DNA from: Bdellovibrionales bacterium CG12_big_fil_rev_8_21_14_0_65_38_15
Lineage (GTDB): Bacteria; Bdellovibrionota; Bacteriovoracia; Bacteriovoracales; Bacteriovoracaceae
Assembly (NCBI GenBank): GCA_002787775.1
Contig: PCUW01000028.1
Span: 62,739-126,738, forward strand
Reading direction: 5' to 3'
DNA length: 64,000 bases
The notes beneath the pieces were generated by a model. It was not told the DNA's origin, did not search any database, and saw only the letters and a list, made by a program, of their open reading frames with translations. The position numbers and the translations under genes were made by a program. Shown one piece after another: positions 40,341 to 57,208 of this stretch (its first letter is position 1; each line of letters begins with the position of its first letter).

Positions 40341-40781
40341 ATGTCGAACACGAATCTTGACGTCTATATGCCGGTCATTATTTTAATGATTCTGGCTTTT
40401 GTTTTAGTTGGTGGTGCGCTTTTAGTTGCTAAAATTTTGCGACCAAGCAATCCAACAGAACTTAAACAAACTGAATATGAATGTGGTGAGCTACCTGTCG
40501 GTGTTGCTTGGTCCAACTTCAATGTTCGCTTCTATGTTGTCTCACTTATTTTTATCGTCTTTGATGTTGAGGGCGCTTTAATGTTCCCGCTAGCATCAAT
40601 CTATAAAAAATATAATGATGCTGGTGCCGGTGGCGTTGTTCTCGCAACCTTTCTTTTGTTCATTGGCATCTTGGCCGCTGGTGTTGTGTATTGCTGGCGC
40701 AAGGGTGATCTTGACTGGGTTAGAAGCTTTCAAACTCCAGCAAAAAATAACCAACGCACTCAAGGTGTTGTGAATGAATAA
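40341..40781 (+). CDS. nuoA: NADH-quinone oxidoreductase subunit A
   Basis: A 146-residue complex I subunit with three membrane helices. The conserved loop YECGELPVG and the helix NVRFYVVSLIFIVFDVEGAL with its acidic residues are intact. GGGAG precedes the ATG. First gene of a membrane-arm-only cluster. Overlaps nuoH by 8 bases. Confidence 0.97.
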   Translation: MSNTNLDVYMPVIILMILAFVLVGGALLVAKILRPSNPTELKQTEYECGELPVGVAWSNFNVRFYVVSLIFIVFDVEGALMFPLASIYKKYNDAGAGGVVLATFLLFIGILAAGVVYCWRKGDLDWVRSFQTPAKNNQRTQGVVNE

Positions 40782-41970
40782 TACAATCGTAAGCTATTTC
40801 TTACAGTTCGAAGAATTTCAAACTGTTGTAACAAAACTCTCAGAAATTACTGGCGCAAATGCAACTTCATTAGTTGCCTTTGTCATCTTTGCCGTTGCTG
40901 CAGTAGTAGTTCTTGGTGCACTTGCAACTGTTGGTGGACTTGGCACTTACGCTGAAAGAAAAATTTCTGCCGATCTTCAAATGAGACAGGGTCCTAACCG
41001 CGTCGGTCCTTATGGAATTCTTCAGTTTCTTGCCGATGGCGTGAAGATGATCATGAAGGAAGATATCGTTCCAAGACATGCTGATAAGCTCACGTTCAAT
41101 ATCGCCCCTCTTCTTTGTATGCTTGGTGTAATGGCGACGTTCGCTGTTCTGCCATTTTCAAGTGGCTTTACCATGACTGATCTTGATGTCGGCGTGTTCT
41201 ACTTGATCGGCGTTTCATCACTAGTAGGTGTTGGTATTTTTCTTGGTGGATATTCATCAAATTCTAAATGGTCAATGCTTGGTGGAATGCGTGGTGCCTC
41301 ACAAATTATTAGCTACGAAGTACCAGTAACACTTTCAATCCTTGCTATCGTTCTTTTGGCCGGTGGTATGTCTTTTGGAACAATTGTTTCAGCTCAAGGT
41401 GCATGGCCTCACCAATGGTTTGTACTTCATAACCCGTTTACCTTTATTGCATTTATAGTTTTATTTATCGGTGTATTGGCTGAAACAAACAGAGCGCCTT
41501 TCGATCTACCAGAAGCTGAATCAGAACTTGTTTCTGGTTACCATACTGAATTTACCGGCATGAGATTTGGTTTTTTTGCTTTAGCAGAATACATGGAAGT
41601 CTTTGTTGTTTGCGGTGTTGTGGCAGCTTTATTTCTTGGTGGATACAATGTTCCTTTTGGTCTTGGCGAAGGTACTTTCCTAATGGAAAAACTTCATATT
41701 CCAGCCATTCATGCCAAGGGTGTTGGTCAGCTTCTTCAAGTTGGCTCTTTTGTTTCTAAAACACTTGCACTTTATTATGTTGTTATTTGGATTCGTTGGA
41801 CATTGCCTAGACTAAGAGTGGATCACTTGATGACTCTTTGTTGGAAGTACCTAACCCCAATCGCTTTATTTAATCTAGTTGGTTGTGCCTTGTGGATGTT
41901 CTTCTTTCACGGTCAATCAATCTGGCAACTCCTTGGTCACCTTGGTGGTGGTCATGGCGGCGGACATTAA
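40774..41970 (+). CDS. nuoH: NADH-quinone oxidoreductase subunit H
   Basis: A 398-residue quinone-site subunit with eight helices. It has AERKISADLQMRQGPNRVGP, QFLADGVKMIMKEDIVP, the conserved loop AETNRAPFDLPEAESELVSG (Glu237-Arg240 region) and the end LPRLRVDHLMTLCWKYL. All residues of the quinone chamber and E-channel loop are present. The C-terminus is a Gly/His-rich tail (GHLGGGHGGGH). Confidence 0.97.
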   Translation: MNNTIVSYFLQFEEFQTVVTKLSEITGANATSLVAFVIFAVAAVVVLGALATVGGLGTYAERKISADLQMRQGPNRVGPYGILQFLADGVKMIMKEDIVPRHADKLTFNIAPLLCMLGVMATFAVLPFSSGFTMTDLDVGVFYLIGVSSLVGVGIFLGGYSSNSKWSMLGGMRGASQIISYEVPVTLSILAIVLLAGGMSFGTIVSAQGAWPHQWFVLHNPFTFIAFIVLFIGVLAETNRAPFDLPEAESELVSGYHTEFTGMRFGFFALAEYMEVFVVCGVVAALFLGGYNVPFGLGEGTFLMEKLHIPAIHAKGVGQLLQVGSFVSKTLALYYVVIWIRWTLPRLRVDHLMTLCWKYLTPIALFNLVGCALWMFFFHGQSIWQLLGHLGGGHGGGH

Positions 41971-41989
41971 TAAGTAACTGGAGATTTTT

Positions 41990-42526
41990 GTGTTTGATCA
42001 AATTCTTTTTATACTTTCGGCTGTCATTACCATGGGTGGTGCCTTAGCTGTTGTATTTTCAAATAACCTTATGCACGCTTGTGTTTACTTGCTTGCAAGT
42101 CTGTTCGGTGTGGCTGGGTTGTATGCGACACTTAACGCTGACTTTTTGGCTGCCACTCAGCTTGTTGTTTACGCCGGTGGTGTTGTTATTCTTATGCTTT
42201 TTGCCATCATGCTTACTGGTGGAGTTCAATCAACAGTAAACAAATTTGGTATCGTTAAAGTTCCTGGAATGGGTAATGCTAAAACTTATTCAGCAGCAGG
42301 TTTAGCAGCTGTTGTTATCTCATTTGTCTTATTTAAAATTCTAAAAAATGCAGCAGCAATGCCTGCCAAAGGCCAGATGGCTTATGAAAGTACTGTTGAG
42401 AAACTTGGTGGCTTGTTAGTGAGTGATCACGTTCTTGCCTTTGAGCTTTCATCAATTTTACTTCTTGGTGCATTAGTTGGGGCAGCAGTTATCGCCCGCC
42501 CAAGACATATTAAGGATGATGTATGA
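41990..42526 (+). CDS. nuoJ: NADH-quinone oxidoreductase subunit J
   Basis: A 178-residue membrane subunit with five helices. It shows NNLMHACVYLLASLFGVAG, ADFLAATQLVVYAGGVVILM (with the pi-bulge helix) and FELSSILLLGALVGAAVIARP. The GTG start at 41990 follows ACTGGAGATTTT. It overlaps nuoK by 4 bases. Confidence 0.96.
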   Translation: MFDQILFILSAVITMGGALAVVFSNNLMHACVYLLASLFGVAGLYATLNADFLAATQLVVYAGGVVILMLFAIMLTGGVQSTVNKFGIVKVPGMGNAKTYSAAGLAAVVISFVLFKILKNAAAMPAKGQMAYESTVEKLGGLLVSDHVLAFELSSILLLGALVGAAVIARPRHIKDDV

Positions 42527-42828
42527 TCACATTGCCATCATATCTCTTTATCTCATTTGTGCTTTTTATCTGCGGCTTAGTCGTTATGATTGCGAGAAAA
42601 AATATCGTCGCCATCATGCTTGGTATTGAGCTTATTCTTAATGCTGCCGCTTTAAACTTTGCCGCCTATACAAAATTTATCAATCAAAATTTAGATGGAC
42701 ATATAATTTCATTGTTCATCATTGTAATTGCAGCCGCTGAAGCAGCTGTGGGTCTTGCGATCGTGATTCGTTTTTATCAGATCAAAGAAAGTATCCACAT
42801 CGATGATGCGACTCAACTCCAAAGCTGA
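42523..42828 (+). CDS. nuoK: NADH-quinone oxidoreductase subunit K
   Basis: A 101-residue three-helix subunit. The conserved glutamates are in IMLGIELILNAAALN (helix 2) and IVIAAAEAAVGLAIV (helix 3), both intact. It overlaps nuoJ (ATGA) and is followed 14 bases later by nuoL. Confidence 0.97.
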   Translation: MITLPSYLFISFVLFICGLVVMIARKNIVAIMLGIELILNAAALNFAAYTKFINQNLDGHIISLFIIVIAAAEAAVGLAIVIRFYQIKESIHIDDATQLQS

Positions 42829-42842
42829 AGGACGGGAATTTC

Positions 42843-45017
42843 ATGGACTATACAGTAATGAATGTAGCCCCAATTGTTTTGCTGCCATTTTTTGCTTTCG
42901 TACTAAACTCTTTTATTGTTAAAAGATTTACGACGCTTGCAGTTTCAATTTCATGTGGTGCAATCTTCGGATCATTTATCTTTGCTTTCAGAATTTTTAA
43001 AGACTTTGTTTTTGGAACTTACGCAACAGATGCTTATGTTCACAAATTCTTTAACTGGATTGACCTATCTTTTGGGGCCGAAATATTCAAAATTAATATG
43101 GGTATCTATATTGATAATATGACGGCAGTCATGTTGTTAATGGTTACCGGTGTTGCCACTTTAATTCACGTCTTCTCGTCATGGTATATGCATGATGATG
43201 CGAGATACGGAAGATTCTTTGTTTATATGTCATTGTTCACAAGCGCCATGCTTGGGCTTGTTCTTTCAGACAATCTTCTTTCAGTTTTCATCTTCTGGGA
43301 GCTGATGGGATTTTGTTCATATAGCTTAATTGGCTTCTACTATGAGAAAGAAGCTGCCGGGAATGCATCAGTCAAAGCTTTCATGACAACGAGAGTTGGG
43401 GATGTATTCTTCCTACTTGGGATTTTGGCACTTTGGTCTGTTGTCGGTTCTGTTACATTCGTTGATATTTACGCTGCCGTTGCAGCAGGTAAATTTGAAG
43501 GTGTGATGGCGCTTGGAATTCCAGTGATTACAGTTGCGGCCTTTTCATTATTTATGGGAACGATTGGTAAATCAGCTCAGTTCCCACTTCAGGTTTGGTT
43601 GCCAGATGCCATGCAAGGACCAACACCCTGCTCAGCTCTCATTCACGCGGCAACAATGGTTGCGGCAGGTGTTTATCTTTCTCTTCGTGCTTATCCATTA
43701 ATGGAAGCTGCGGGCATGCTTCCATACATTGCTTATATTGGTGCGATTACTGCCTTTGGTGCGGCAACGATTGCGCTAATTCAAACAGATATTAAAGCTG
43801 TTCTCGCTTATTCAACCATTTCTCAACTTGGTTATATGGTTCTGGGAATCGGCGTAGGTTCGTATAATGCAGCTTTCATGCACCTGATTACTCACGCTAT
43901 TTTTAAGGCATGTTTATTCTTGGCCGCAGGTTCAGTTATTCACAGCCTTCATGATCCTCATACACACGCCGGCGTTCAAGAAATGCCAAGAATGGGCGGA
44001 TTAAAAAATAAATTGAAGTTCACATGGATTGCAATGTGGTGTTGTACTTTGGCCATCTCAGGTATTCCATTTTTCTCAGGATTTGTTTCAAAAGACAGAA
44101 TTCTAGGTGATGCTCTATTAATGGCACTTTCAAATAAGTGGTATATTGCTCCTACAATTCTTGGATTCTTTGCTGCTCTTTTAACTGCATTTTATATGTG
44201 TAGAATGATGTTCCTGACATTCCATGGTCAGCCGCGTGACAAAGAAGTTTATGACCACTGTCACGAAGAGCACCTAACTTGGAACAGTAATGTACCTTTA
44301 TTAATTCTGTCGGTGTTTACTCTTGGTATTTGGTTCTCTGGCTCTTTAACAGGACAAGGTTTAGTTAAAGTTGCTGGCGATAGATATGAATGGTTTCAAA
44401 CATTAATTCATGAACCAGTTCCCGCGAAATTTGCAACACACAGAAGACAGCAATGGGGCAGCGAAGACATTAAGTCAGGCGCGAACTTCCCTCGTGCTTC
44501 ATATGATTCAAATCACGGACTTTCAGAAGAAGAAGCTCACCATGTTCACCATATCCACCATATTGGTGCGATCATGTCGATCATCATTGCTTTTTCTGGC
44601 GTATTCCTAGCCTTCCTTATGTACGTAAAAAAATCTGTCGATCCAGGTTGGTGGGTCTCAACATTCTCTGGTTGGTATAAATCACTAAAGAATAAGTATT
44701 ACTTCGATGACCTTTATATTGGTGTATTGATTCAAAAAGGACTACTTCCTTTTAATAATCTTTTGGCCGCATTTGATATGGGCGTTTATGACCGCTACGC
44801 CGTTGATGGTTGGGCAACTGTAAATAGAGTCATGTATAAGTTTGCGCGCTGGTTTGATGACCTCATTGTCGACACCGTTGCCGTTGACGGAACTGGTGCC
44901 AGTGTTCGCTTGTTTAACTTAGTGCTTAGAACAGTTCAGTCTGGGAAAATACAATTTTACTTTTTGATCATTGTGTTTGTCTTAGCTGGATATGCTTGGA
45001 AATTAGTAATTAATTAA
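42843..45017 (+). CDS. nuoL: NADH-quinone oxidoreductase subunit L
   Basis: A 724-residue antiporter-like proton-pumping subunit. Helix 5 glutamate is in FIFWELMGFCSYSLIGFY, helix 7 lysine in GTIGKSAQFPLQVWLPDAM, and the broken-helix region is TDIKAVLAYSTISQLGYM. The long C-terminal lateral helix and final anchor are present (about residues 610-724), with a His-rich insertion (EEEAHHVHHIHHIG) before it. Confidence 0.97.
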   Translation: MDYTVMNVAPIVLLPFFAFVLNSFIVKRFTTLAVSISCGAIFGSFIFAFRIFKDFVFGTYATDAYVHKFFNWIDLSFGAEIFKINMGIYIDNMTAVMLLMVTGVATLIHVFSSWYMHDDARYGRFFVYMSLFTSAMLGLVLSDNLLSVFIFWELMGFCSYSLIGFYYEKEAAGNASVKAFMTTRVGDVFFLLGILALWSVVGSVTFVDIYAAVAAGKFEGVMALGIPVITVAAFSLFMGTIGKSAQFPLQVWLPDAMQGPTPCSALIHAATMVAAGVYLSLRAYPLMEAAGMLPYIAYIGAITAFGAATIALIQTDIKAVLAYSTISQLGYMVLGIGVGSYNAAFMHLITHAIFKACLFLAAGSVIHSLHDPHTHAGVQEMPRMGGLKNKLKFTWIAMWCCTLAISGIPFFSGFVSKDRILGDALLMALSNKWYIAPTILGFFAALLTAFYMCRMMFLTFHGQPRDKEVYDHCHEEHLTWNSNVPLLILSVFTLGIWFSGSLTGQGLVKVAGDRYEWFQTLIHEPVPAKFATHRRQQWGSEDIKSGANFPRASYDSNHGLSEEEAHHVHHIHHIGAIMSIIIAFSGVFLAFLMYVKKSVDPGWWVSTFSGWYKSLKNKYYFDDLYIGVLIQKGLLPFNNLLAAFDMGVYDRYAVDGWATVNRVMYKFARWFDDLIVDTVAVDGTGASVRLFNLVLRTVQSGKIQFYFLIIVFVLAGYAWKLVIN

Positions 45018-45050
45018 GAACGTTTTTTTAATAGATATAGGGAGTAACCC

Positions 45051-46583
45051 ATGCACGGCTCATCTAACCTGCTCAACTGGATTTTGTGGATGCCATTAAT
45101 TGGCGCTATTGGCGTATTACTTTTACCTAAAGCAAAAGAATCTGCTGTTAGATGGTGGAGTTTGCTAAATACTGCCATTACATTTGCATTAACCTTAGTG
45201 CTGTACAGTAAATTCGACTCAAACGTGCCTGGCATGCAAGAAGCTTTTACAGTGAAAATCCCTTGGATCTCACAGTTCAATATTTTTTATAGCCTTGGTA
45301 TAGATGGAATTTCACTTCCGATGATTCTTTTAACAGGATTGTTATTCTTCCTTTGTATTTTAAGCTCATGGACAATAACCAAATCCATTAAAGGCTACTT
45401 CGCCCTAATGTTGATGCTTCAATCAACAGTTTTTGGTGTGTTCTTATCTCTAGATTTCTTCCTGTTTTATGTTTACTGGGAAGTCATGCTTATTCCAATG
45501 TTCTTTCTTATCGGAATTTGGGGTGGAGAGAACCGCGAATATGCCGCGGTTAAATTTTTCCTTTATACATTCTTTGGATCGATCCTAATGCTTGTTGGTA
45601 TGGTTGCTCTTTACTATGCGACAGGGCAAAGCGCTGAATCTTTTGATATACTTGCTCTGTCTGGTGGTAAGTTTACAGAGCTTACTGTTTCAATGTTTGG
45701 CTCTACTCTACCTTTCGCAAAAATTTTCTTTGTGTTCATGTTCATTGGTTTTGCGATCAAGGTTCCAGTATTTCCATTTCACACATGGTTGCCACATGCA
45801 CACGTACAAGCACCAACGGCAATTTCTGTGATCCTTGCTGGTGTTCTACTTAAGATGGGTACTTATGGGTTCTTAAGAATTGCATTCCCTATTTTTCCTG
45901 GCGCAGCAGTGTATTTTGCAGATGCAATCGCTTGGCTTGGTTTGATCAATATCGTTTATGGTGCCCTTTGCGCAATGGCACAAACGGACGTTAAAAAACT
46001 TGTGGCTTACTCATCAGTATCTCACATGGGATTTGTCATGGTTGGGCTTGCCGCTATGACAACAGAAGGCATGAACGGAGCCGTTCTTCAAATGTTCAAC
46101 CACGGAACTTCTGCTGCCATGCTGTTTCTAATGGTTGGGGTTCTTTATGAAAGATCTCACCATCGTTGGATTGTACGCCCAGATGGATCTAAAGGATTTG
46201 GCGGTCTTTATACACAAATGCCAATTTTTGCGATCATCTTTATCATTTCAATGTTTGCTGCGATGGGGCTTCCTGGATTATCAGGCTTTATCTCAGAAGC
46301 ATTAATTTTCTTAGGTATCTACAAGAAATACACAACAATCACAGTTATCTCTCTGGTCGGCTTACTACTTGGAGCAGCCTACTTGTTGTGGATGTTTAAG
46401 CGTATGTTCTTTGGAGAAGTTATTGAAAGCTGTAAGTCATATACAGATATGAACAATAGAGAAATTTTATTCATGGTTCCTCTTTGTATTGCCGTGATCG
46501 TATTTGGTGTTTGGCCGTCTCCAATTTTAAATATTATGAAGGCTTCAGTAGGCCAACTGGTCTCAATGCTCTCTAAGTTTTAG
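45051..46583 (+). CDS. nuoM: NADH-quinone oxidoreductase subunit M
   Basis: A 510-residue antiporter-like subunit with about 14 helices. Helix 5 is FFLFYVYWEVMLIPMFFLIG; the lysine helix region is AIKVPVFPFHTWLPHAHVQAP; it has TDVKKLVAYSSVSHMGFV and GLPGLSGFISEALIFLG. A ribosome-binding site (ATAGGGAGTAACCC) precedes the ATG. Confidence 0.97.
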   Translation: MHGSSNLLNWILWMPLIGAIGVLLLPKAKESAVRWWSLLNTAITFALTLVLYSKFDSNVPGMQEAFTVKIPWISQFNIFYSLGIDGISLPMILLTGLLFFLCILSSWTITKSIKGYFALMLMLQSTVFGVFLSLDFFLFYVYWEVMLIPMFFLIGIWGGENREYAAVKFFLYTFFGSILMLVGMVALYYATGQSAESFDILALSGGKFTELTVSMFGSTLPFAKIFFVFMFIGFAIKVPVFPFHTWLPHAHVQAPTAISVILAGVLLKMGTYGFLRIAFPIFPGAAVYFADAIAWLGLINIVYGALCAMAQTDVKKLVAYSSVSHMGFVMVGLAAMTTEGMNGAVLQMFNHGTSAAMLFLMVGVLYERSHHRWIVRPDGSKGFGGLYTQMPIFAIIFIISMFAAMGLPGLSGFISEALIFLGIYKKYTTITVISLVGLLLGAAYLLWMFKRMFFGEVIESCKSYTDMNNREILFMVPLCIAVIVFGVWPSPILNIMKASVGQLVSMLSKF

Positions 46584-46592
46584 GAAAAAGAT

Positions 46593-48059
46593 ATGCAACT
46601 TAATTATTTAGCCAATCTTTCTCACTATGTACCCGAGTTGATTGTCTGCCTAACAATGGTCATGACAATGATTGTTGAGGCAACATACGAGAATGGGGAG
46701 AAATCAAAACCCCTTATGTATTGGTGTTCAATTGTTGGCTTATTTTGTGCCTTTGTTGTTTTATGTTTAAGCCTTAATCAGCCTCCAACAACAGCTTTCT
46801 TTAATGCTGTTGTGATTGATCCATTTAGCACATTGATGAAAATCATTATGGTACTTGGTACTCTTGGGGCGATATGGCTAAGCCACTCTTCAAACGATAT
46901 CTATAATCCAGTTAAGCCAGAATTTATTATGCTAGGCCTTGGCGTTCTTGTTGGTGGAATGTTACTGGCATCTGCTAATAATATGCTGACTCTATACCTT
47001 GGCATTGAAACACTCTCAATTCTCTCTTATGCCTTAGCTTCGCTAAGAAAAAATGATGAGAGATCTTCTGAAGCAGGACTTAAGTACTCACTTTACGGCG
47101 GAATTTCAGCAGGTCTAATGTTGTTTGGAATGAGTCATATGTTTGGAGTTCTTGGCACAATCCAGTTCAATGGTATGGCACAAAATATTGCGAACCTTAC
47201 TCAAAATGAAATATTGATTCTGATTCCATCATTCTTATTATTTTTTGTTGGTATTGGTTATAAGATTGCTTGTGTACCTTTTCATATGTGGTCACCAGAC
47301 GTTTATGAAGGTTCACCTCTTCCAGTCACGGCCTTCTTTTCAATCGTTCCAAAGATGGCAGGTATTGCGGTCCTTCTAAGAATTACTATTTCGTTTTTCT
47401 CAAACGACGGAGTCATGCAGTATTCTTGGCTTGGCCTACTACAAGTTATTGCAGCCCTAACGATGACCGTTGGAAACATCTCGGCCATCAATCAAAGATC
47501 TATCAAAAGAATGCTAGCATTCAGCTCCATTGGTCACGCCGGATTTATGATGCTAGGTGCAATTGTTCTTGGCGTCGATGGTGTTCGTTCAGTGTTGTTC
47601 TACGGAATCGGTTATATGTTTATGACATTAGCCGCATTCGCAATTACATCGTTTATTCAGAACAAATATGGCAATGATCATTTTGAACGCTTTAGCGGCC
47701 TTATTTACAGAAAGCCGATGATGGCGATTGCAATGACAATTATTATGTTCTCTTTGGCCGGAATTCCACCGTTTAGCGGTTTCGTTGCAAAGTTTCATAT
47801 CTTATCTGCAATCATCAAGCAGGGTTATATGACTCTTGCAATCATTGCAGCAATAAACTCGGTTATTTCGCTCTACTATTACCTTAAGGTTGTAAGACTC
47901 ATGGTATTCAAGGAAAAAGAAGACGACGGCGAGATTATCGGTTTTTCATTTGTTAACCAGTCCGTCATCGTTATGCTTGTTATTCCAGTAGTTGTACTAG
48001 GACTATTTTGGGCGAAAATAATGGCGGTTGCAGACGGGGCTAAACTCTTTATACAATAG
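46593..48059 (+). CDS. nuoN: NADH-quinone oxidoreductase subunit N
   Basis: A 488-residue antiporter-like subunit with about 14 helices. Helix 5 is LYLGIETLSILSYALASL with Glu139; it has YKIACVPFHMWSPDVYEGSP, SIKRMLAFSSIGHAGFMMLG and GIPPFSGFVAKFHILSA. It closes the canonical nuoAHJKLMN set. Five bases after the stop, another membrane-protein gene begins in the same orientation. Confidence 0.97.
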   Translation: MQLNYLANLSHYVPELIVCLTMVMTMIVEATYENGEKSKPLMYWCSIVGLFCAFVVLCLSLNQPPTTAFFNAVVIDPFSTLMKIIMVLGTLGAIWLSHSSNDIYNPVKPEFIMLGLGVLVGGMLLASANNMLTLYLGIETLSILSYALASLRKNDERSSEAGLKYSLYGGISAGLMLFGMSHMFGVLGTIQFNGMAQNIANLTQNEILILIPSFLLFFVGIGYKIACVPFHMWSPDVYEGSPLPVTAFFSIVPKMAGIAVLLRITISFFSNDGVMQYSWLGLLQVIAALTMTVGNISAINQRSIKRMLAFSSIGHAGFMMLGAIVLGVDGVRSVLFYGIGYMFMTLAAFAITSFIQNKYGNDHFERFSGLIYRKPMMAIAMTIIMFSLAGIPPFSGFVAKFHILSAIIKQGYMTLAIIAAINSVISLYYYLKVVRLMVFKEKEDDGEIIGFSFVNQSVIVMLVIPVVVLGLFWAKIMAVADGAKLFIQ

Positions 48060-48064
48060 AGATA

Positions 48065-48346
48065 ATGTCTCAATCACTAATAATATATTTATCTATGGGA
48101 GCGGCCATTTTGGCCGTTTCTTATTTCAAGATATCTTCATACAAGAATATTTCAAATATCATAAAGAAAAAATACTGGATGAATCTTGGAAAAACCGTAG
48201 ATAGCCGTATTTATAAGTTCCTATGTACAATCGTAATCCCGCTAATAATTCTAATAAAGTTTGAAGTAAATAATGAAAATGTTTTCTACATAATACCAAT
48301 CATAGCAATAGCGATATTAATTAATATTGAAAAAAGAGTGAAATAG
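48065..48346 (+). CDS. small 3-helix membrane protein, candidate diverged NuoA-like
   Basis: A 93-residue protein with helices at about 4-21, 51-69 and 72-89 and a long charged loop between the first two, the NuoA layout. By eye, DSRIYKFLCTIV aligns with NVRFYVVSLIFIV of NuoA (R-x-Y and I-V shared), but the ECG loop and acidic residues of NuoA are absent. No known family is recognised from sequence alone. It starts 5 bases after nuoN, so it is probably part of the same transcript, and comes first in a seven-gene series parallel to nuoA-N. Confidence 0.7.
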   Translation: MSQSLIIYLSMGAAILAVSYFKISSYKNISNIIKKKYWMNLGKTVDSRIYKFLCTIVIPLIILIKFEVNNENVFYIIPIIAIAILINIEKRVK

Positions 48347-48348
48347 AT

Positions 48349-49110
48349 ATGGAAAGCATATTGATTACAATTTTTCTATTTGTGTTAAATGCATTGGTAA
48401 TATTTGGTGCACTTCCTTCGAGCGAAGTAATAGATAATTTAAAAGTTAAAAACTCAATAAAAAATGCAATAATAAATTACTATAGAAATATATTACAAGA
48501 AATTAGCAACTCAAAAATTGCAAACATAACGTTTCACATAGAACTTCTCTTGGGGCTATTTGCAATTGGATTTTCAATATTCACAGCAAATAATTCAATT
48601 TTAATAGTATTTGTAGCAGCAATGAACATTGTAAGCATCATAAAAGATATTATGCTTGGAGAGGATTATTTAAAAAAGGAAAAGATAAACAACCAATTGG
48701 TCATAAGTCTACTGCTTATGTTTTCTTTAAAAATTGCAAGTTCGGCTGATAATGCTCTTCTTCTACTTCCCGTAATAAATTTATTGGTAATAAGCATTTT
48801 AAACACGAATAAAAATAAATATCACTTTGAACAAAAACCCTCTCTGATATTTATAGATAAATTTGTCTTCTCAATAACGCTTTTTTCACAGAGTATAATA
48901 TTGCTTAAAGAATATCTAAGAGAAGAAAGTCTTTTAAGCGTCATAGTTCTAAGTTCATTTCTATTTATATCTCAAATCTATATACTCGAAATGTTAACAA
49001 TTGGCTCAATCGTAAAAAGAAGAGCGGAAACTAGAAGAATAACGATAACTACCAGTATGTCAGGAATAATTCTAATTATGTTATTTATCAAAATTTGGAA
49101 TAATGTATGA
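48349..49110 (+). CDS. 8-helix membrane protein, candidate diverged NuoH-like
   Basis: A 253-residue protein. I count eight membrane helices (about 3-22, 62-79, 83-101, 115-130, 134-151, 167-188, 196-216, 234-250), the number in NuoH. Local matches: NITFHIELLLGLFAIG against KLTFNIAPLLCMLGVM before helix 2; SILNTNKNKYHFE against VLAETNRAPFDLP in the Q-site loop (T-N-K/R kept, glutamates lost); LLKEYL against LAEYME; then a basic KRRAETRR segment before the last helix, where NuoH has RLRVDHL. Without its acidic and Arg residues it cannot work as a normal quinone subunit. Homology is inferred. Confidence 0.7.
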   Translation: MESILITIFLFVLNALVIFGALPSSEVIDNLKVKNSIKNAIINYYRNILQEISNSKIANITFHIELLLGLFAIGFSIFTANNSILIVFVAAMNIVSIIKDIMLGEDYLKKEKINNQLVISLLLMFSLKIASSADNALLLLPVINLLVISILNTNKNKYHFEQKPSLIFIDKFVFSITLFSQSIILLKEYLREESLLSVIVLSSFLFISQIYILEMLTIGSIVKRRAETRRITITTSMSGIILIMLFIKIWNNV

Positions 49111-49538
49111 CTGACGAAGCCATTTATATCATAACCATTGTTCTCGCAATTCTTTCGATGCTTACGAATAAAAGCAAATACTCTACCTTCTTTTCCATTG
49201 GAGCTATTCTCGCTTTGTTTTTAGTACCCCTTGAAAAAACGACACTCGAATCATCTGTTTTATTCTTGATAGTATTTACAGCATTTGAAAGCATATGCTT
49301 TACACAAAAAGCATGGGACTTCCATCGATTCAAAAAAACAAAATCTTCAAGACATAAACTATTTTGGATAACGGTATGTTTGACGATAGGGTTAACCGCT
49401 GCATTGATGTCGTCAATGAATTTTAATAATTACAGTCTAAAACAAATAACATTTGATCAAGATTTGTTGAAAATATTAATACCGATTGCTTTTTGTGTTT
49501 TTGGATTAATTAAAAACAAAAAGAGGAATAGTGTTTGA
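49107..49538 (+). CDS. 5-helix membrane protein, candidate diverged NuoJ-like
   Basis: A 143-residue protein with five helices (about 5-20, 26-41, 47-66, 84-103, 119-136), as in NuoJ. The N-terminus MTDEAIYIITIV resembles NuoJ MFDQILFILSAV, and ITFDQDLLKILIPIAFCVFG sits where NuoJ has VSDHVLAFELSSILLLGALV. The conserved glycines of the NuoJ pi-bulge helix are not kept. Its ATG overlaps the previous stop (ATGA) and it overlaps the next gene by 8 bases. No other family is recognised. Confidence 0.7.
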   Translation: MTDEAIYIITIVLAILSMLTNKSKYSTFFSIGAILALFLVPLEKTTLESSVLFLIVFTAFESICFTQKAWDFHRFKKTKSSRHKLFWITVCLTIGLTAALMSSMNFNNYSLKQITFDQDLLKILIPIAFCVFGLIKNKKRNSV

Positions 49539-49773
49539 ATTAAATAATTTTTCAATAATGATTCCAATCATATTTATGGCCATGATTTATCAAGGTGACA
49601 GTCTTGGGGCACAGCTAAGAATGTGTGTTTACGTTTTGATTTCAACGTTGGCAGTATTGGTAAAAGATCAACATGGTGCAGATACGTTTTTTTCTATTTC
49701 AATTGTGATTATGTTTTTAGGAATGATTTTGATTTTAAAATTAAACAGAAAAAAAGACGTTGCAGATGATTAA
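49531..49773 (+). CDS. 3-helix membrane protein, candidate diverged NuoK-like
   Basis: An 80-residue protein with helices at about 6-20, 26-44 and 52-71, as in NuoK (101 residues). It occupies the NuoK position between the NuoJ-like and NuoL-like genes. HGADTFFSISIVIMFLGMIL resembles NuoK GHIISLFIIVIAAAEAAVGL, but both pump glutamates of NuoK are missing. It starts with GTG at 49531, preceded by AGAGGA, and overlaps both neighbours by about 8 bases. Confidence 0.65.
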   Translation: MFELNNFSIMIPIIFMAMIYQGDSLGAQLRMCVYVLISTLAVLVKDQHGADTFFSISIVIMFLGMILILKLNRKKDVADD

Positions 49774-51088
49774 TATTGCGTTGCTATTTTTTTCAATTCT
49801 TGAGCTTCTTAAAATAGATGAAAAATATAAGATCTATTCAGAACAAATAAATACATTGATCGCTATCGGCTTGTGGATTGTATTGGGTGGAGATGAAAGC
49901 TTTGTTCCCATAGCCCTGGGTGCGGTGATCAGTATAAAAACATTATTCAAGATTAAACTACCAATAGAGCTTAATAAACATATCTTGCCGTTAACAATAG
50001 TATCTCTTGCCGGAATTGAAACAAGCATTATCTATAGTTTTATTATCGTTTCAATAACTCATAGAACGATAATTTTAAATGAGCTTAAAAATATTATTGG
50101 TATCTTAATCCTCTATTTGCTTTCTTTATATTTGAAGGATTTTTCGTTAACGATTTCTTATATTTCAATATTCTTTTGCAGCATTTTTATATTCCTTAAT
50201 TATCGACAAAATAATAGGCTCAGTTTATTTTTGTGGACTTTACTTCAATCAAAATTTGCCTTAGCGGTATTTGATCAAAAGTTATATTTCATCATTGAGA
50301 TGGGAATCGTTGCAAGCATTGTATTTGCCGTTTTCGTTTTGTGGTTAGAAAAAAGACAAAGCTTAACATGGTCATCAATAAAAAAAATTCAAACACTATT
50401 TGTCTGGTATTCAACACTTCAATTTGGCCCGTTTGGTTTTTGGCTTTCACTTTCATTTTTTGCCTTTATAAAGGAAGTCATTTCAAACAAACAAATTGAT
50501 GATGAGCACGCCGTTTTAAAGGTTAAGCCAATAGCCTTAACAATCTTTTATCTCATTTCAATATCACTTCCCGTTTTCTTTTTGATAAATGTAAAAGAAA
50601 TTAAAACAACAGTTCTTGGCGCCATCGTTTCATTTCTTTTTTTATTGGTTGGAGCTCGGTGGTTTAGAGAGTTGAAAACCATGATTATTGAAAAAAGATT
50701 AGATAAGTGGCACATTCTTGATATTTCAGCAATCGTATTTTTAACAGTGATGTTATCTTACCGACTAGTAGGCGGAAATATTCTTGGTATTATAATTTAT
50801 GCGTCAATCTCAATTCTTATACTGGTCTTGGTTGCGGGATTAAAGATAGATGAGTACTTATTTTCGAATTTATCAATGCCAAGATTATTATTGAAATTAG
50901 ATACAGACAGAACAATAAAGACGAGTCGTAAGGCATTAAGTAATATCAAAATAACACCCATCGATAATCTCATAAAATTTGTGTTTGATCTATTTCGAGA
51001 AACTTTGATCTTTGTTGAGAGAAACTTTCTTGTCATATTTTTACTAGTTTTTTTCGTCGTGTTTTACATTGGTGGTGGCTTTGCATAA
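49766..51088 (+). CDS. about 15-helix membrane protein, candidate diverged NuoL-like antiporter subunit
   Basis: A 440-residue protein (ATG at 49766, overlapping the previous stop; a TTG two codons earlier is possible). It keeps two signatures of the antiporter-like NuoL/M/N fold: SLAGIETSIIYSFIIVS (Glu85) against NuoN LYLGIETLSILSYALAS, and SSIKKI...WYSTLQFG (Ile205-Gly221) against SIKRMLAFSSIGHAG of NuoN and YSTISQLG of NuoL. A Lys in LLQSKFALAVF lies where NuoL has GKSAQFPL. It ends with an amphipathic stretch plus a final anchor (DNLIKFVFDLFRETL, then VIFLLVFFVVFYIGG), as NuoL does. The homology is my inference. Confidence 0.75.
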   Translation: MINIALLFFSILELLKIDEKYKIYSEQINTLIAIGLWIVLGGDESFVPIALGAVISIKTLFKIKLPIELNKHILPLTIVSLAGIETSIIYSFIIVSITHRTIILNELKNIIGILILYLLSLYLKDFSLTISYISIFFCSIFIFLNYRQNNRLSLFLWTLLQSKFALAVFDQKLYFIIEMGIVASIVFAVFVLWLEKRQSLTWSSIKKIQTLFVWYSTLQFGPFGFWLSLSFFAFIKEVISNKQIDDEHAVLKVKPIALTIFYLISISLPVFFLINVKEIKTTVLGAIVSFLFLLVGARWFRELKTMIIEKRLDKWHILDISAIVFLTVMLSYRLVGGNILGIIIYASISILILVLVAGLKIDEYLFSNLSMPRLLLKLDTDRTIKTSRKALSNIKITPIDNLIKFVFDLFRETLIFVERNFLVIFLLVFFVVFYIGGGFA

Positions 51089-51887
51089 AAATATTATAAA
51101 CACTTTAATTTTTCTATGCATGGCAAGTGCTGTCGTTTTTAGTCGTTATAATAATGACTTGTGGACATATATTTCTCAGATAAGCTTAATGCTTTCTTGC
51201 TACTCACAAGATGCTAAAGCAAGAAATCAGAATATAGTTTTGTCTGCAGTTTTAATACTGATGATATTTACGTCGACATTTTCAGGCCCAACAGTATTAA
51301 CTTCAATCGTATTGCTAGCGTTAACTTTAATATGCTCTATAAGTAAAAGTGAAAAAACAAGAATTGGATCTCAGTTTTTATGCGGCTTGCTTACTGTAGG
51401 ACTAATATTTGAAAACTTTTCTCCAGGTTCGCTGTATTATTTTAATTTAGATGTAACTGTTTATATTTTAATGATCATAGGTGCATTAATAGTCTTTAAT
51501 ACAAAATCGGTAAACTTCTCTTCAATCATTGCGATGTCTTTGTACTGTATTGGAGCTAGCTTCACCCAAATCCAAGCCTATCTTTTAGTTTTTCTACTGA
51601 TTGGTGTTTTAAGGGGGGAAATTGTAAAAGTAGCGAATTTAAGTTTGTTGTTGTTACTCTGGGCTTACCCCGGACATAGCTGGGAGGTTATTCTCTTTTT
51701 AATCTTCATTTTACCGTCAGACTTAACGCGTTGGTTAGATGAAGAATATAAACTAGTCTCCTATTTTTCATTGGGAGCGTGTCTTGCTACCAGCTTAGAT
51801 ATCGAGTTCAAGTTCTTTATTGTCCTTTGTATGTTACTGATAAGTATAAAGCCTTTTCATTCCACAAAAAGAGCTCTTAATGTTTGA
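51069..51887 (+). CDS. about 12-helix membrane protein, candidate diverged NuoM-like
   Basis: A 272-residue protein of about 11-12 short helices in the NuoM position. LLLLWAYPGHSWEVILFLIF resembles the NuoM segment AAMGLPGLSGFISEALIF (PG, S and acidic residue kept). The upstream KSVNFSSIIAMSLYCIG recalls VKKLVAYSSVSHMGF, but with weak support. It is barely half of NuoM's length. The start is uncertain among TTG 51069, GTG 51072/51075 and TTG 51081, all inside the end of the previous gene. It overlaps the next gene by 8 bases. Confidence 0.65.
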   Translation: MVVALHKNIINTLIFLCMASAVVFSRYNNDLWTYISQISLMLSCYSQDAKARNQNIVLSAVLILMIFTSTFSGPTVLTSIVLLALTLICSISKSEKTRIGSQFLCGLLTVGLIFENFSPGSLYYFNLDVTVYILMIIGALIVFNTKSVNFSSIIAMSLYCIGASFTQIQAYLLVFLLIGVLRGEIVKVANLSLLLLLWAYPGHSWEVILFLIFILPSDLTRWLDEEYKLVSYFSLGACLATSLDIEFKFFIVLCMLLISIKPFHSTKRALNV

Positions 51888-52971
51888 TCAAGAACTATAT
51901 AAAATATTATCAGTGATTGGCATGGTGTTTCCTTTGTCTCTATCTCTACAAATTAGTGCCAAGCTAAAAAAACTGATTTTTTTGCTGTCTACAGTATTGC
52001 TCGTTGTTGGCGCAGGATTATCAATGCCCTGGACGCTATCAATAATTTTAATATCAAGCTATTTATGTCTTATTGGAAAAGAAGATTTCTATAATGGGTA
52101 CATTTTTCTATTGATAATCTGTATCGGAAACTGGTCCAACCCAGGCATTACAGAGTTATTGCTTGTATTACTTACGGTAATAATAAATTTAAAATTTAGT
52201 GATAGGGTGTCAAAGTTTGTAATACCAGTCTTTGCCATTACAACAATGTTATATATCGTTAACTCATCAGCGATAACCACTTCTTCGGTTGTTGCCTTTT
52301 GTTTAATGATTAGCATCTCTCTCTTATTTTTTAGTGTTTTTACAAAAAACATAGAAATTAAAGATTCTTTTTCAGTTCTTTCGCTTTTCCTTATCTCGTC
52401 CCAACTGAAGATAATTATTGAGCAGAACTCATCAAATCTAAGTTTATCTATGTATAATACTTGGTTTAGTTTTAATATTTTGATGGTGTTTATTGTATTG
52501 ATGAAAATATTAGCTTTTTATGAAAAATCAGAAAATATTAAACAAGAATTTTTAAAATTATCAGCGATAAGCTTCTTTCTTCCATCTTTTGTAAGTCTCG
52601 CACCCATTTCAACAAATGAAATTGCGATGTATGCGATGGTAAATCTGATTGGCTCGATCTTATATTTACACCAAAAAAATTATACTAAATTTGATACAAT
52701 GCTTTTGATGGCGGTGGGCTCAATTATCATTGGAGTTCAAATTTACGTCTTCATTGGTCTGGATCTTCAAGGCCCAGCCCTCTTTGTAACCGTGATGCTC
52801 TTGGCCTCTGAGCTGTTTTACTTGATAAAATCCATCGAGAATCGCGAGGATCACAGTGTATCAATTCTCTATAGGGAAAGATTGCCGCAATTAGTGTTTA
52901 TTTCAATCGCTTTTGGATGGATCTGTACCCTCTGGTATATTTTATATTATGTCAGAAAAATACAGGGTTAA
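51880..52971 (+). CDS. about 14-helix membrane protein, candidate diverged NuoN-like
   Basis: A 363-residue protein of about 14 predicted helices, as in NuoN, and in the NuoN position. NPGITELLLVLLTVI could correspond to the Glu helix (LYLGIETLSIL), and LSAISFFLPSFVSLAPIS to the segment SLAGIPPFSGFVAKF. Both are weak. The N-terminus MFDQELYKILSVIGM oddly resembles that of NuoJ (MFDQILFILSAVITM). The ATG lies in the end of the previous gene; the last 23 bases overlap the GYF/TPR gene, so the eight genes form one coupled unit. Confidence 0.65.
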   Translation: MFDQELYKILSVIGMVFPLSLSLQISAKLKKLIFLLSTVLLVVGAGLSMPWTLSIILISSYLCLIGKEDFYNGYIFLLIICIGNWSNPGITELLLVLLTVIINLKFSDRVSKFVIPVFAITTMLYIVNSSAITTSSVVAFCLMISISLLFFSVFTKNIEIKDSFSVLSLFLISSQLKIIIEQNSSNLSLSMYNTWFSFNILMVFIVLMKILAFYEKSENIKQEFLKLSAISFFLPSFVSLAPISTNEIAMYAMVNLIGSILYLHQKNYTKFDTMLLMAVGSIIIGVQIYVFIGLDLQGPALFVTVMLLASELFYLIKSIENREDHSVSILYRERLPQLVFISIAFGWICTLWYILYYVRKIQG

Positions 52972-55900
52972 ATTAGAAAATAATCGGATTGTTGGACCGT
53001 TCAGTCCCTCTCAAATTGCCGAGCTTTTTGAGCGCGGCCATGTATCTGATGCGAGCCCCTGTCAGGTATTTCCTGCTGGAGACTGGTTTGAAATTGAAAA
53101 ATTTTCAGAAATAAAAGAGGCAATATTAAGTAAAATATCAGGAAAGAGTGAAAATACGCAAACGGCGGCCGAAGCCACTGTTGTCAATATGATGCTCCCC
53201 AAAAAGAAGACCAATAAACAACTTCAAGAAAAGCTATCTACAACTGATACAGAAGAAACGAAGTCTGAATCATCGATTGATAACCAGCTCAATGAATTCA
53301 AATTTGATAAAGAGCAAGGTCATGAAGTTGATTATGAGGAATTAGAAAAAAAGTACCAAGAAAAAAAGAAAATTGAACTCGCCAAAATAAATGAAGCGCA
53401 AGTGCAAGCAAAAGTTAAAAGTTCAGAGAATACTATTGAAGAAGAAGTAGAAACAGAGGATCCATCGCTCGACAAGACGAGAGTGATAAACAGACCTAAA
53501 AAGAATAGCCAAGCTGACGTAGATAAAACGAGAGTGATTCAACGGCATGACATTGCAAAACCTAATGAAGACAAATTAATTCAGAAGATTGAAGAGCAAG
53601 CAAAAAAAATTGCAAATGAGCCCATTGAAGAAGAGCCTCTAAATACTAGTGAAGCTACGGAGTTTATCAATATTAGAGATATGGTGCCTGCCTTATCTCA
53701 AAATGCTGAACTTGCAGAAAAAGAAATTGTTACTCTAGCAAAGCAAAAAAGAAATGATGACAAATCAAATCTTTCATTTGAAGAGCCAGACGAATTGGAT
53801 GAATCCGACGATGATGAGGTTGAAGAAAAGAAACGTGGAATGAAGCCCATTGTCTTGATTGCTTTTTTGGTCGTTTTTTGGATGCTATTTTTTGAAGACG
53901 ACAAAAAGCCTGTTCAAGAAATAAATCCCCAACGTGTATCAATCGTCTTTCCAAGTCAGGGTGAGTATCTTGATGAGGTTAAGGCTAATCAGGCACTTGC
54001 TCAAGGACTTGAGCAGTCAGCTCTACAATCATATTTAAATTTAGTTGCAGCTGCAAAAGCATATCGTGTCTCCCTATTCTATAAATTTCAAGATAATCCA
54101 GCGATGGGTCAACTTATACAAACTTATTCCCAGCTTTTTCCCAATGCCAAAAGTAAGCTTGAAGCATCGACAACATTATTTAATCTAATTCGAGTATCGC
54201 AAGATAAAGTTCTTACCGATGCAAATGTTGCGATTGGCACCGCAAATTTTTATTTAAATTCAAATAAATATTTGACTGCTGTAAACACTATTGAAAACTA
54301 TTTGCGTGTTTCAAAAAAACCAACTGTAACAATGCTGTCTATTTATTTAGAGGCGCTTGTTAAGGCCGGAAGGCTATCTGACTCAAAAGACGTTTTTAAT
54401 AAACTCAAGGATCTGAACAAACTTCCTATTGAGGCATATATTAATATTGCGGACTATTTAGACTTTGATGAAAAAAAGACAGAGGCTACTAAATTTATTG
54501 ATAAAGGACTCGTCATATACCCCAATAGCGTTGAGCTTTTGTTAAGAAAAGCGGATCTACTATTAAGCACCGGCGATATTAAGTCCTATGAAATGGTCCT
54601 TCGTAAAGTTGAAGAGCTCAAAGCGGAGCAGTCCCCAATATTTTATGCAGATCTTTTAGAGCATATGGGTAACGCAGCTGTTCTAAATGCTAAATCAAGT
54701 CTTGCTGCAGACTTTTATAGAAAGTCTTTACAAATACGTGAGTCATCGGAGTTAAGGGCAAGACTTGCAACTCTCTCCATTGGTGGTGACAAGGCTTCGC
54801 AAGCGCTCATCAAAGAGAGTAAAATTCATGAGCTAATTAAAAAGTCTAAATTTGCAATTAAGGAATTTGATTGGGAGTCTGCTTTTGTCTACGCGATTGA
54901 AGCTTCTGACTTAAATCCACTTTATATTGAATCTAATCTTCTTCTAGTAGATATTCAGATTAAAAGAGGGTTCTTTTCGGCCGCACTTTCAACATTGCAA
55001 AGACTAAAAAAAGAATATCCATCTGATAAAAATGTTAATAATAAGTTAATTGAAACTTATATCCTAGCCTACAGATTTAACGATGCGATAACTTCGATAA
55101 ATGAATTTGCTCAAGTCGATGGAGCTGTAAATACCCCCGAGTATGCTTCCATGTTAGGTAGGTATTACTTTACAAATGGAAATGATCTCACAAGTATTAA
55201 ATGGCTATCTGAAGCAGTAAATCGAGACCCCTTAGCAGATGAGGATCTCTATTTAATGGCAAGAATCTATATTAAAAATGGAAAGTATAATGACGGGAAG
55301 CTAATGCTAAGCAAGGCACTAACACTTGATCCTGTTAATTTGAAATATCAAGTTCTTTACGCTCAAACACTCTATGATCAAGATGGCGCAGATACTGCAA
55401 TTGGATATTTGCGAGACATTTTGCAATCAAATAAAGATAGCCCACAAATTTTGGGTGAAATTGCAAAATATTACTACAAGTCAGGACAAATTAAAGAATT
55501 CAATATTTATAAGGAAAAGATAGAATCTCAAGAAACAAAAGATGAAAGCTTTTATAGGTTTATGATCTATGCCTCTGAGCTTAATCAACAAGCAGATAAA
55601 GTTCTTTTATATGCCAGAGAACTCATTAAAATAAATCCAGGTGAGTTATCAACACATATTAAAATCGGAGAATACTTAGCAAAACAAGGTCGATACGATC
55701 AATCAATCGAAGCATTTCAGTTAGTAAAAGACCGATTGGATTCATATCCAAAAATCAACTATATGATTGCAAAATCATATCTTGAGATGGGTAAGCTTGA
55801 TAAGGCACTTGAGTTTGCAGAATTAGAGATAAAAAAGAATCCCAAGATACCAGAAGGCTATTATATTACTGGCGAAGTTTTGGCTAAAAAAGAGCAATGG

Positions 55901-56200
55901 CCTCAAGCTATAAAAAACTTAGAGAAGGCTGTAACAATCGACTTTAGTTATGTAGAGGCTTTACTCTCGCTGGGTATTCTTAAGCGAAAACAAAACAGCT
56001 ATGAACAGTCACGTGAGTTGTTGCTGCGAGCTCTGAAGCAAGAGCCAAATAACCCTATTATTCATAAAGAGCTTGGTTATGTTTATCGCGCAGTGGGTCA
56101 GGGCGTGTTAGCTGCAGAATCCTTTAATACTTATCTAACATTAATGCCCAGTGCCACAGATCGTTCGGAAATAGAGGCCCTTATTAGGGCTACACAATAA
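52949..56200 (+). CDS. GYF-like / TPR-repeat membrane-anchored protein
   Basis: A 1,083-residue protein. Residues 1-65 form a GYF_2-like domain (RVKLENNRIVGPFSPSQIAEL). A long acidic, coiled-coil linker carries two copies of DKTRVI (residues 175 and 192), which resemble phosphothreonine/FHA-ligand motifs. One membrane helix (about 297-317, PIVLIAFLVVFWMLFF) places the first 295 residues in the cytoplasm and the rest in the periplasm. The periplasmic part has many TPR units (NKYLTAVNTIENYL, KLDKALEFAELEIKKNP, NSYEQSRELLLRALKQEP). It overlaps the last Nuo-like gene by 23 bases and may scaffold that assembly (inference). Confidence 0.85.
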   Translation: MSEKYRVKLENNRIVGPFSPSQIAELFERGHVSDASPCQVFPAGDWFEIEKFSEIKEAILSKISGKSENTQTAAEATVVNMMLPKKKTNKQLQEKLSTTDTEETKSESSIDNQLNEFKFDKEQGHEVDYEELEKKYQEKKKIELAKINEAQVQAKVKSSENTIEEEVETEDPSLDKTRVINRPKKNSQADVDKTRVIQRHDIAKPNEDKLIQKIEEQAKKIANEPIEEEPLNTSEATEFINIRDMVPALSQNAELAEKEIVTLAKQKRNDDKSNLSFEEPDELDESDDDEVEEKKRGMKPIVLIAFLVVFWMLFFEDDKKPVQEINPQRVSIVFPSQGEYLDEVKANQALAQGLEQSALQSYLNLVAAAKAYRVSLFYKFQDNPAMGQLIQTYSQLFPNAKSKLEASTTLFNLIRVSQDKVLTDANVAIGTANFYLNSNKYLTAVNTIENYLRVSKKPTVTMLSIYLEALVKAGRLSDSKDVFNKLKDLNKLPIEAYINIADYLDFDEKKTEATKFIDKGLVIYPNSVELLLRKADLLLSTGDIKSYEMVLRKVEELKAEQSPIFYADLLEHMGNAAVLNAKSSLAADFYRKSLQIRESSELRARLATLSIGGDKASQALIKESKIHELIKKSKFAIKEFDWESAFVYAIEASDLNPLYIESNLLLVDIQIKRGFFSAALSTLQRLKKEYPSDKNVNNKLIETYILAYRFNDAITSINEFAQVDGAVNTPEYASMLGRYYFTNGNDLTSIKWLSEAVNRDPLADEDLYLMARIYIKNGKYNDGKLMLSKALTLDPVNLKYQVLYAQTLYDQDGADTAIGYLRDILQSNKDSPQILGEIAKYYYKSGQIKEFNIYKEKIESQETKDESFYRFMIYASELNQQADKVLLYARELIKINPGELSTHIKIGEYLAKQGRYDQSIEAFQLVKDRLDSYPKINYMIAKSYLEMGKLDKALEFAELEIKKNPKIPEGYYITGEVLAKKEQWPQAIKNLEKAVTIDFSYVEALLSLGILKRKQNSYEQSRELLLRALKQEPNNPIIHKELGYVYRAVGQGVLAAESFNTYLTLMPSATDRSEIEALIRATQ

Positions 56201-56670: not shown

Positions 56671-56717
56671 CCACGTGAATACGTAGCCTCTGAATTTTAC
56701 AGGAGACGTATACGTGG
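56671..56717. promoter_or_regulatory. inverted-repeat operator candidate for the XRE gene
   Basis: CCACGTGAATACGT (56671-56684) is mirrored imperfectly by ACGTATACGTGG (56706-56717), which itself contains the perfect palindrome ACGTATACGT. The second half covers the spacer between AGGAG and the GTG at 56714, so a bound repressor would block transcription or initiation. Between 56582 and 56660, TGTGCTTAGT, TGTGCTAAGT and TGTGCTTAGT also recur. Confidence 0.45.
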
Positions 56718-57115
56718 CTTGCAAGTTGTCAGAGAGCTTTTTCCATCAATTCGCAAAAGGAGAAATGAAGATGAGAAGAAGCGGTTACAAAATTGAAACA
56801 CCTATCGCGAAGGCCCTTAAAAATATGAGAAATGCAAAGAGCCTAAGTCTTGTAAAAACCAGTCGCCTACTTGGCGTGAGTGAAAGTGTGATTAATCATC
56901 ACGAAAATGGACGCACTGATCATGTGCCAGAAGACTATATTGAGCATTTTGTTAAGACGATGGGCTTTAGTAAGGAAGATTGGGATGATTTTTTAAAAGG
57001 TCGTACCTCTGTTTATGACTTGAGGAAAGAGTGTCGAGAACTTATCAGCAAGCTTGATCGAGATAAGCTTAAGGCGATTCATACGATGCTTTTGAGTTTT
57101 GTGGGAAATAAGTAA
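56714..57115 (+). CDS. XRE-family helix-turn-helix regulator
   Basis: A 133-residue protein. The XRE fold is at about residues 32-88: AKALKNMRNAKSLSLVKTSRLLGVSESVINHHENGR, in which the recognition helix follows GVSES. A short C-terminal helical part remains. Two starts are plausible: GTG at 56714 (AGGAG 8 bases upstream) or ATG at 56771 (AAGGAG upstream), giving 133 or 114 residues. It is the first island gene, probably self-regulated through the upstream inverted repeat. Confidence 0.85.
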   Translation: MACKLSESFFHQFAKGEMKMRRSGYKIETPIAKALKNMRNAKSLSLVKTSRLLGVSESVINHHENGRTDHVPEDYIEHFVKTMGFSKEDWDDFLKGRTSVYDLRKECRELISKLDRDKLKAIHTMLLSFVGNK

Positions 57116-57208
57116 AATCAGCTATTTATTGCTTATATCCATTACAAGTTGACAGCGCGATATCATTTGATATCATATGATAGAAAACGATATAAAAATG
57201 AGGAAAAA

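Follow-up and report, generated by a model that had tools for sequence, protein, structure and literature searches.

A second complex I, divided over two loci and probably non-catalytic, in the family Bacteriovoracaceae

The window, a stretch of 64,000 nucleotides on contig PCUW01000028.1 of Bdellovibrionales bacterium CG12_big_fil_rev_8_21_14_0_65_38_15, carries seven genes directly after nuoN that are predicted to encode the membrane arm of a second complex I. The peripheral arm is encoded at another locus of the same genome. With a probability of about 0.7, the two arms form a selected, non-pumping pseudo-complex I with Fe-S clusters. This reading builds on synteny, on a parallel second peripheral arm, on the pattern of residue loss and retention and on reading frames that stay open under fast evolution. 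The second complex was hollowed in the lineage of the window and in most of the family, with loss of the NADH/FMN site, the quinone site and the proton channels. The hollowing spared the set of subunits and their gene order, the open reading frames, the hydrophobic character of the proteins and the Fe-S ligands. The hollow complex most likely still assembles as a membrane-anchored Fe-S scaffold that does not pump. Its role may be structural, sensing or regulatory, perhaps with envelope partners. Even odds are given to the broader proposal that an entire respiratory complex turned into a selected non-catalytic membrane machine across the family, which kept its shape and Fe-S clusters while its sequence was free to change and took on a new role in the cell envelope or in redox sensing in these relatives of predatory bacteria.

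An earlier note on this DNA had described seven tightly packed membrane protein genes behind nuoN. They were confirmed at 48065-52971 with the sizes given there (Table 1). Adjoining genes of the cluster abut or overlap, with a median spacing of -4 nt over 60 clusters. The note's match in size order to canonical NuoA/H/J/K/L/M/N held as well (Spearman 0.96; equalled by 7 of 5040 permutations, ~0.0014). In helix number the small subunits match the canonical arm exactly, and the note's counts for L, M and N were too high: a simple hydropathy count gave 3/7/5/3/10/6/10 helices for the seven genes and 3/7/5/3/15/12/11 for the canonical arm. A TPR gene lies directly 3' of the cluster, or of nuoN where the cluster is missing. 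The TPR protein is present in 113 of 129 family genomes and is encoded downstream of nuoN or of the second arm in most contexts read. The window also contains, at 56714-59209, genes that by eye encode a helix-turn-helix regulator and then a DEAD-type helicase with an excisionase-like N-terminal domain; the pair is possibly of mobile or defence origin.

Table 1. Features of the second complex I and its surroundings; positions refer to the window unless a locus is given.
Feature	Position	Strand	Remark
Shadow NuoA' (93 aa)	48065..48346	+	cluster position 1 in 60 genomes
Shadow NuoH' (253 aa)	48349..49110	+	cluster position 2
Shadow NuoJ' (143 aa)	49107..49538	+	cluster position 3
Shadow NuoK' (80 aa)	49531..49773	+	cluster position 4
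Shadow NuoL' (440 aa)	49766..51088	+	cluster position 5; start ATG 49766
Shadow NuoM' (272 aa)	51069..51887	+	cluster position 6; putative, identity from position and size series only
Shadow NuoN' (363 aa)	51880..52971	+	cluster position 7
Canonical nuoA-H-J-K-L-M-N	40341..48059	+	context; outside the second complex
TPR protein (1083 residues)	52949..56200	+	one TM helix, weak GYF_2-like N-terminus; start ATG 52949 inside the NuoN' end
Lipoprotein-like protein	L219:6396-8012		no Pfam match; adjoins NuoB'

None of the seven window proteins matched Pfam or NCBIfam over any cut-off. BLAST provided no link to canonical Nuo proteins and nothing above noise in 59 related genomes, and a nearest-relative search with the window L' returned noise only. 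Iterated HMM linking reached J' alone among the window proteins, recruiting it into the NuoJ chain at E<=1e-3. The same procedure joined 40 of the 64 members of the NuoH' family, the window copy not among them. AlphaFold2 models of the 253-residue H' alone (pLDDT 50) and of the 440-residue L' and one relative (pLDDT 38) were both too poor.

The identity of the genes was revealed by relatives. These were found in Bacteriovoracaceae with the window nuoN and TPR proteins, and the intervening stretch was then read. In 60 genomes from 29 genera, nuoN and the TPR gene flank a complete seven-gene set in identical order; the gene order of the cluster is not due to chance. Cluster sizes range from 121/349/172/98/675/493/460 (G014) to 82/230/129/60/217/245/310 (G015). 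Full-size versions occur in one genus and two further genomes; elsewhere sizes shrink gradually and the sequences have diverged beyond the reach of BLAST, as in the window. All seven proteins of genus g14 are BLAST-similar to canonical NuoA/H/J/K/L/M/N, with 24-41% identity. The G014 cluster scored above the Pfam cut-off with, in order, PF00507 (NuoA', E 1.3e-27), PF00146 (NuoH', E 4.4e-105; in G020 E 5.1e-93), PF00499 (NuoJ', E 7e-29), PF00420 (NuoK', E 1.9e-26) and three times PF00361 (NuoL', 272 bits; NuoM', E 1.9e-73; NuoN', E 7.6e-38). The PF00361 score of NuoL' falls to 136, 53 and 38 bits in G020, G022 and G062. The window cluster is the far end of this graded series of sizes and scores. 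Because relatives carry full-size Nuo versions at the same locus, with seven Pfam matches in order, the seven genes are assigned by synteny to a second complex I, as its membrane arm A'H'J'K'L'M'N'. The full-size orthologues thereby bear out the second, catalytically altered membrane arm that the earlier note had read gene for gene in order, and orthologous clusters do follow nuoN in the relatives. An Mrp antiporter or hydrogenase-4 (Hyf) type was rejected: order and Pfam identity are those of complex I A-H-J-K-L-M-N, and the peripheral partner is NuoCD-like.

Degenerate profiles were built only from cluster members without a BLAST link. The profiles of A, H, J, K and N each had their own subunit as best match, with off-diagonal probabilities of at most 2.3%. 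With an enlarged degenerate set, each of A, H, J, K, L and N had its own subunit first in one setting or more, and K then resembled J too. Probabilities were 34-88% for J against NuoJ and 17-68% for K against NuoK. The N profile had NuoN as best match with 18% over 322 columns, whereas NuoL was best for the L profile in one setting only, at a weak 9%. The M' profile did not match its own subunit in either profile comparison. For the window L' and especially M', profile evidence is weak, and their putative identity rests on position and the size series.

A search with NuoD detected two 49-kDa proteins in the genome of the window. The second peripheral locus, on contig C52 (L219), encodes the lipoprotein-like protein, NuoB' (172 aa), a fused NuoCD' (567), NuoE' (133), NuoF' (369), NuoG' (434), NuoI' (144), aat and agmatinase. 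Pfam matches above cut-off were obtained for NuoB (E 1.4e-19), NuoCD (E 9.5e-75 and 8.1e-27), NuoE (E 5.8e-8) and NuoF (E 9.4e-8). NuoG' is just under the cut-off, and NuoI' is supported by Fer4 matches. The same locus is present in G014 with full-size genes. The grouping of lipoprotein, B, CD and I genes beside aat and agmatinase is found again and again in the family; E'F'G' are often missing from it. The second complex is a complete complex I divided over two loci. The membrane arm described before is thus real but not free-standing; its peripheral partner, missed by the earlier note, is at another locus and equally altered. The lipoprotein-like gene was found only in family f1 (44 of 192 genomes of the phylum) and persists in G006 and G073, where B', CD' and I' are gone. 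At L241:3123-4193, a fatty-acid desaturase gene (PF00487, checked in L241 only) is located between the hollow NuoI' and aat. Similar-sized genes occupy this position in L242, L246, L249, L250, L223 and L238.

Intact genomes retain all tested catalytic residues. The proton-path residues checked were Glu36/Glu72 of NuoK, Asp79/Glu81 of NuoA and Lys/Glu of L, M and N. All are kept in genus g14 (12 genomes), and they are kept in G031 and G028 in the subunits that could be read. Every alignable non-intact relative has lost several of them, with some single positions remaining; the window L', M' and N' are not alignable. A separate ion device, one of the options in the earlier note, is unlikely because the proton-carrying residues are lost in non-intact relatives where alignable. 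All 20 of 20 hollow genomes have another residue in place of the quinone His of NuoD (THG motif), and 19 of 20 have lost the quinone-site Tyr (RL-N/D-Y); other invariant NuoD residues are retained at 57%. The second NuoD of the window's genome has Gln for His and Phe for Tyr, also in the PDB alignment. These positions correspond to His38 and Tyr87 of Thermus Nqo4. The FMN/NADH motifs GRGGAGFPTG and GAGAYICGEE of NuoF' are gone in the window's genome and its congener, and the NuoF gene is missing in many relatives. Both catalytic ends of the second complex are lost. G020 looks like a transitional state: the NuoD His is replaced by Gln, E'F'G' are absent, some pump residues are lost and the cysteines are kept. 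Among hollow genomes, arm length and NuoD conservation were not significantly correlated (rho 0.28, p 0.34).

The Fe-S cysteines behave differently. In NuoB 72% of them are retained and in NuoI 83%, compared with 42% for other invariant residues, an excess with Fisher values of 6e-6 (NuoB) and 6e-18 (NuoI) when genomes are counted as independent. The window's genome has 4/4 ligands in NuoB, two CxxCxxCxxxC motifs in NuoI and preserved cysteine patterns in NuoE/F/G. The cysteines could be kept for folding only. They may also still conduct: the main functional rival to the scaffold is a chain of Fe-S clusters that passes electrons from a new donor to a new, non-quinone acceptor. Such a wire would fit a genome in which NuoB, E, F, G and I have all retained their cysteine patterns and both catalytic ends are gone. 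It would also fit the desaturase, an electron-requiring enzyme, that adjoins the hollow locus in at least one relative, with similar-sized genes there in others. The proposal is doubtful, however, as E'F'G' are entirely lost in most relatives, the NuoB cluster or one NuoI cluster is lost in some, and the desaturase is absent from the locus in the window's genome.

The ancestor of the family very likely had the second complex in working form, because one genus and G031 still have both of its loci intact, and G028 is intact in the parts seen. Losses are frequent. The TPR gene directly follows nuoN in genus g24, G069, G006, G073, G068, G002, G004 and G032/G115 (genus g32). The membrane arm is gone and the hollow peripheral arm kept in g24 and G069. 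G002 has CD' at another place; G006 and G073 have the lipoprotein only; no trace of the second complex was detected in G004, G032 and G068. Genus g5 (L060, L189, L193) has a five-gene version of the membrane-arm cluster, in which only a single short antiporter-like gene remains upstream of the TPR gene. In genus g25, L063 (G025) and L181 (G114), two full-size antiporter-like genes precede the hollow set, just upstream of the TPR gene. A relocated membrane arm was searched for with a J' profile in genomes with only the peripheral arm. The hits resemble canonical or third-complex NuoJ, judging from their coordinates; the profile clearly found 3 of 5 held-out true copies, and loss of the membrane arm is thus not proven. 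The two arms are not strictly inseparable, because several lineages (genus g24, G069) kept the peripheral arm without the membrane arm.

These losses could mean that most lineages have no use for the second complex I, which would be slowly disappearing without a present function. Complete loss has occurred repeatedly (G004, G032, G068, G070) and partial loss is seen in g24, G069, G006, G073 and g5; the graded shrinkage of the genes and their very fast divergence point in the same direction. Hollow congeners share 84-92% identity in nuoN and mostly 24-76% in the seven genes. In pairs within g14, by comparison, the second arm evolves like nuoN, with 91-96% identity and a dN/dS of 0.01-0.07. However, the dN/dS of hollow genes stays below 1: where estimable, it is about 0.1-0.4 for the closest pairs, and it reaches ~0.7 for more distant ones, whose dS is saturated. 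All seven frames are open in 60 of 60 clusters, and random substitution at the divergence observed in g3 predicts 3-22 stops per gene, of which none is seen. Pure neutral decay is therefore unlikely. Purifying constraint remains on the hollow genes, and the Fe-S ligands are selectively kept. Slow decay to no function is accordingly rated as improbable, and a selected pseudo-complex is preferred.

The canonical complex I is a further candidate partner of the second arm. Its peripheral arm is located elsewhere in the genome of the window (L220, G000:C7) with NuoB, C, D and I and no EFG; the only NuoF-like gene of this genome is the hollow one. In this family the canonical complex comprises NuoB, C, D, I and A-N. 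It resembles an 11-subunit enzyme and is probably not fed by NADH, because no NuoEFG is encoded nearby (L220, L235 = G014:C2) and many complete family genomes are without any NuoF. Several genomes encode a third complex I (L204-L209, L217), in some with fused NuoCD, and the NuoM tree places this third complex as sister to the second. In the earlier note, the second arm was suggested to extend, cap or regulate the canonical complex. It is encoded directly after nuoN with a gene spacing consistent with one operon, and the canonical complex here is without its own NuoEFG. This is not the simplest reading, because the genome also encodes a second peripheral arm that matches the membrane arm and is altered just as much. 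In addition, the ancestry of the second arm differs from that of the canonical arm, and intact relatives carry a full subunit set for a separate complex. An extension or cap is quite unlikely.

Adjacency and identical gene order suggested that the second arm arose by tandem duplication from the canonical arm beside it and then diverged, and it had been described as a repeat of that arm. The second arm belongs to a different complex I lineage. The NuoM of the intact second arm groups at 100/98 support with that of the third, separate complex I in the family, and the AU test on NuoM rejected a clade of second and canonical arms (p-AU 0.0004, lnL difference 65.7), which makes the duplication very improbable. 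That seven unrelated membrane proteins resemble Nuo in size by chance is hardly credible, although the window proteins alone have no database match: at the same locus, relatives have full-size orthologues that are the Nuo subunits in order, from the first to the seventh, off-family profile matches are low, and synteny refutes the idea, barring several independent in-place gene replacements.

A 13-subunit energy-converting machine thus seems to have lost energy conversion in most members of the family and has yet been kept. The same two loci show intact, transitional, hollow and lost states side by side, and so the order in which a complex I is dismantled becomes readable. This opens the question of which constraints remain once catalysis is not one. 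It is also a warning for annotation, which misses such arms entirely. A literature search yielded no description of such a hollowed second complex I, and the maintenance of an entire enzyme complex as a probably non-catalytic shell appears to be new to the literature. Pseudoenzymes are, to our knowledge, known one protein at a time.

Among known systems, the 14-subunit complex I with fused NuoCD (NDH-1) shares its subunit inventory and the membrane order A-H-J-K-L-M-N with the second complex, and an intact NDH-1-like version is present in relatives at the same two loci. Unlike NDH-1, the window version is without the FMN/NADH, quinone and proton-path residues, its L', M' and N' are much shortened and its sequence is past BLAST detection. 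In the '2M' complex I found in Nitrospira and elsewhere, the pump is lengthened by a single additional NuoM. There, likewise, extra membrane subunits are encoded beside the nuo genes; here it is a whole second arm, with no pump residues and with its own peripheral arm. The nearest enzyme form is the 11-subunit complex I-like enzyme, which was reported as an active electron entry point (PMC11238625). The absence of NuoEFG is common to this enzyme, many hollow second complexes and the canonical complex of the family, whereas the hollow complex has also lost the quinone His/Tyr and the pump residues. The closest parallel in concept is the deranged bc1 complex of Acetobacteraceae, which has lost its metal ligands and was proposed to be kept for stabilising complex I (PMC10715153). 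Both are respiratory complexes kept after loss of cofactor or catalytic ligands, with a structural role proposed. Unlike the deranged bc1 complex (PMC10715153), the hollow complex keeps its Fe-S ligands and comprises 13 subunits, encoded at two loci in much of a family.
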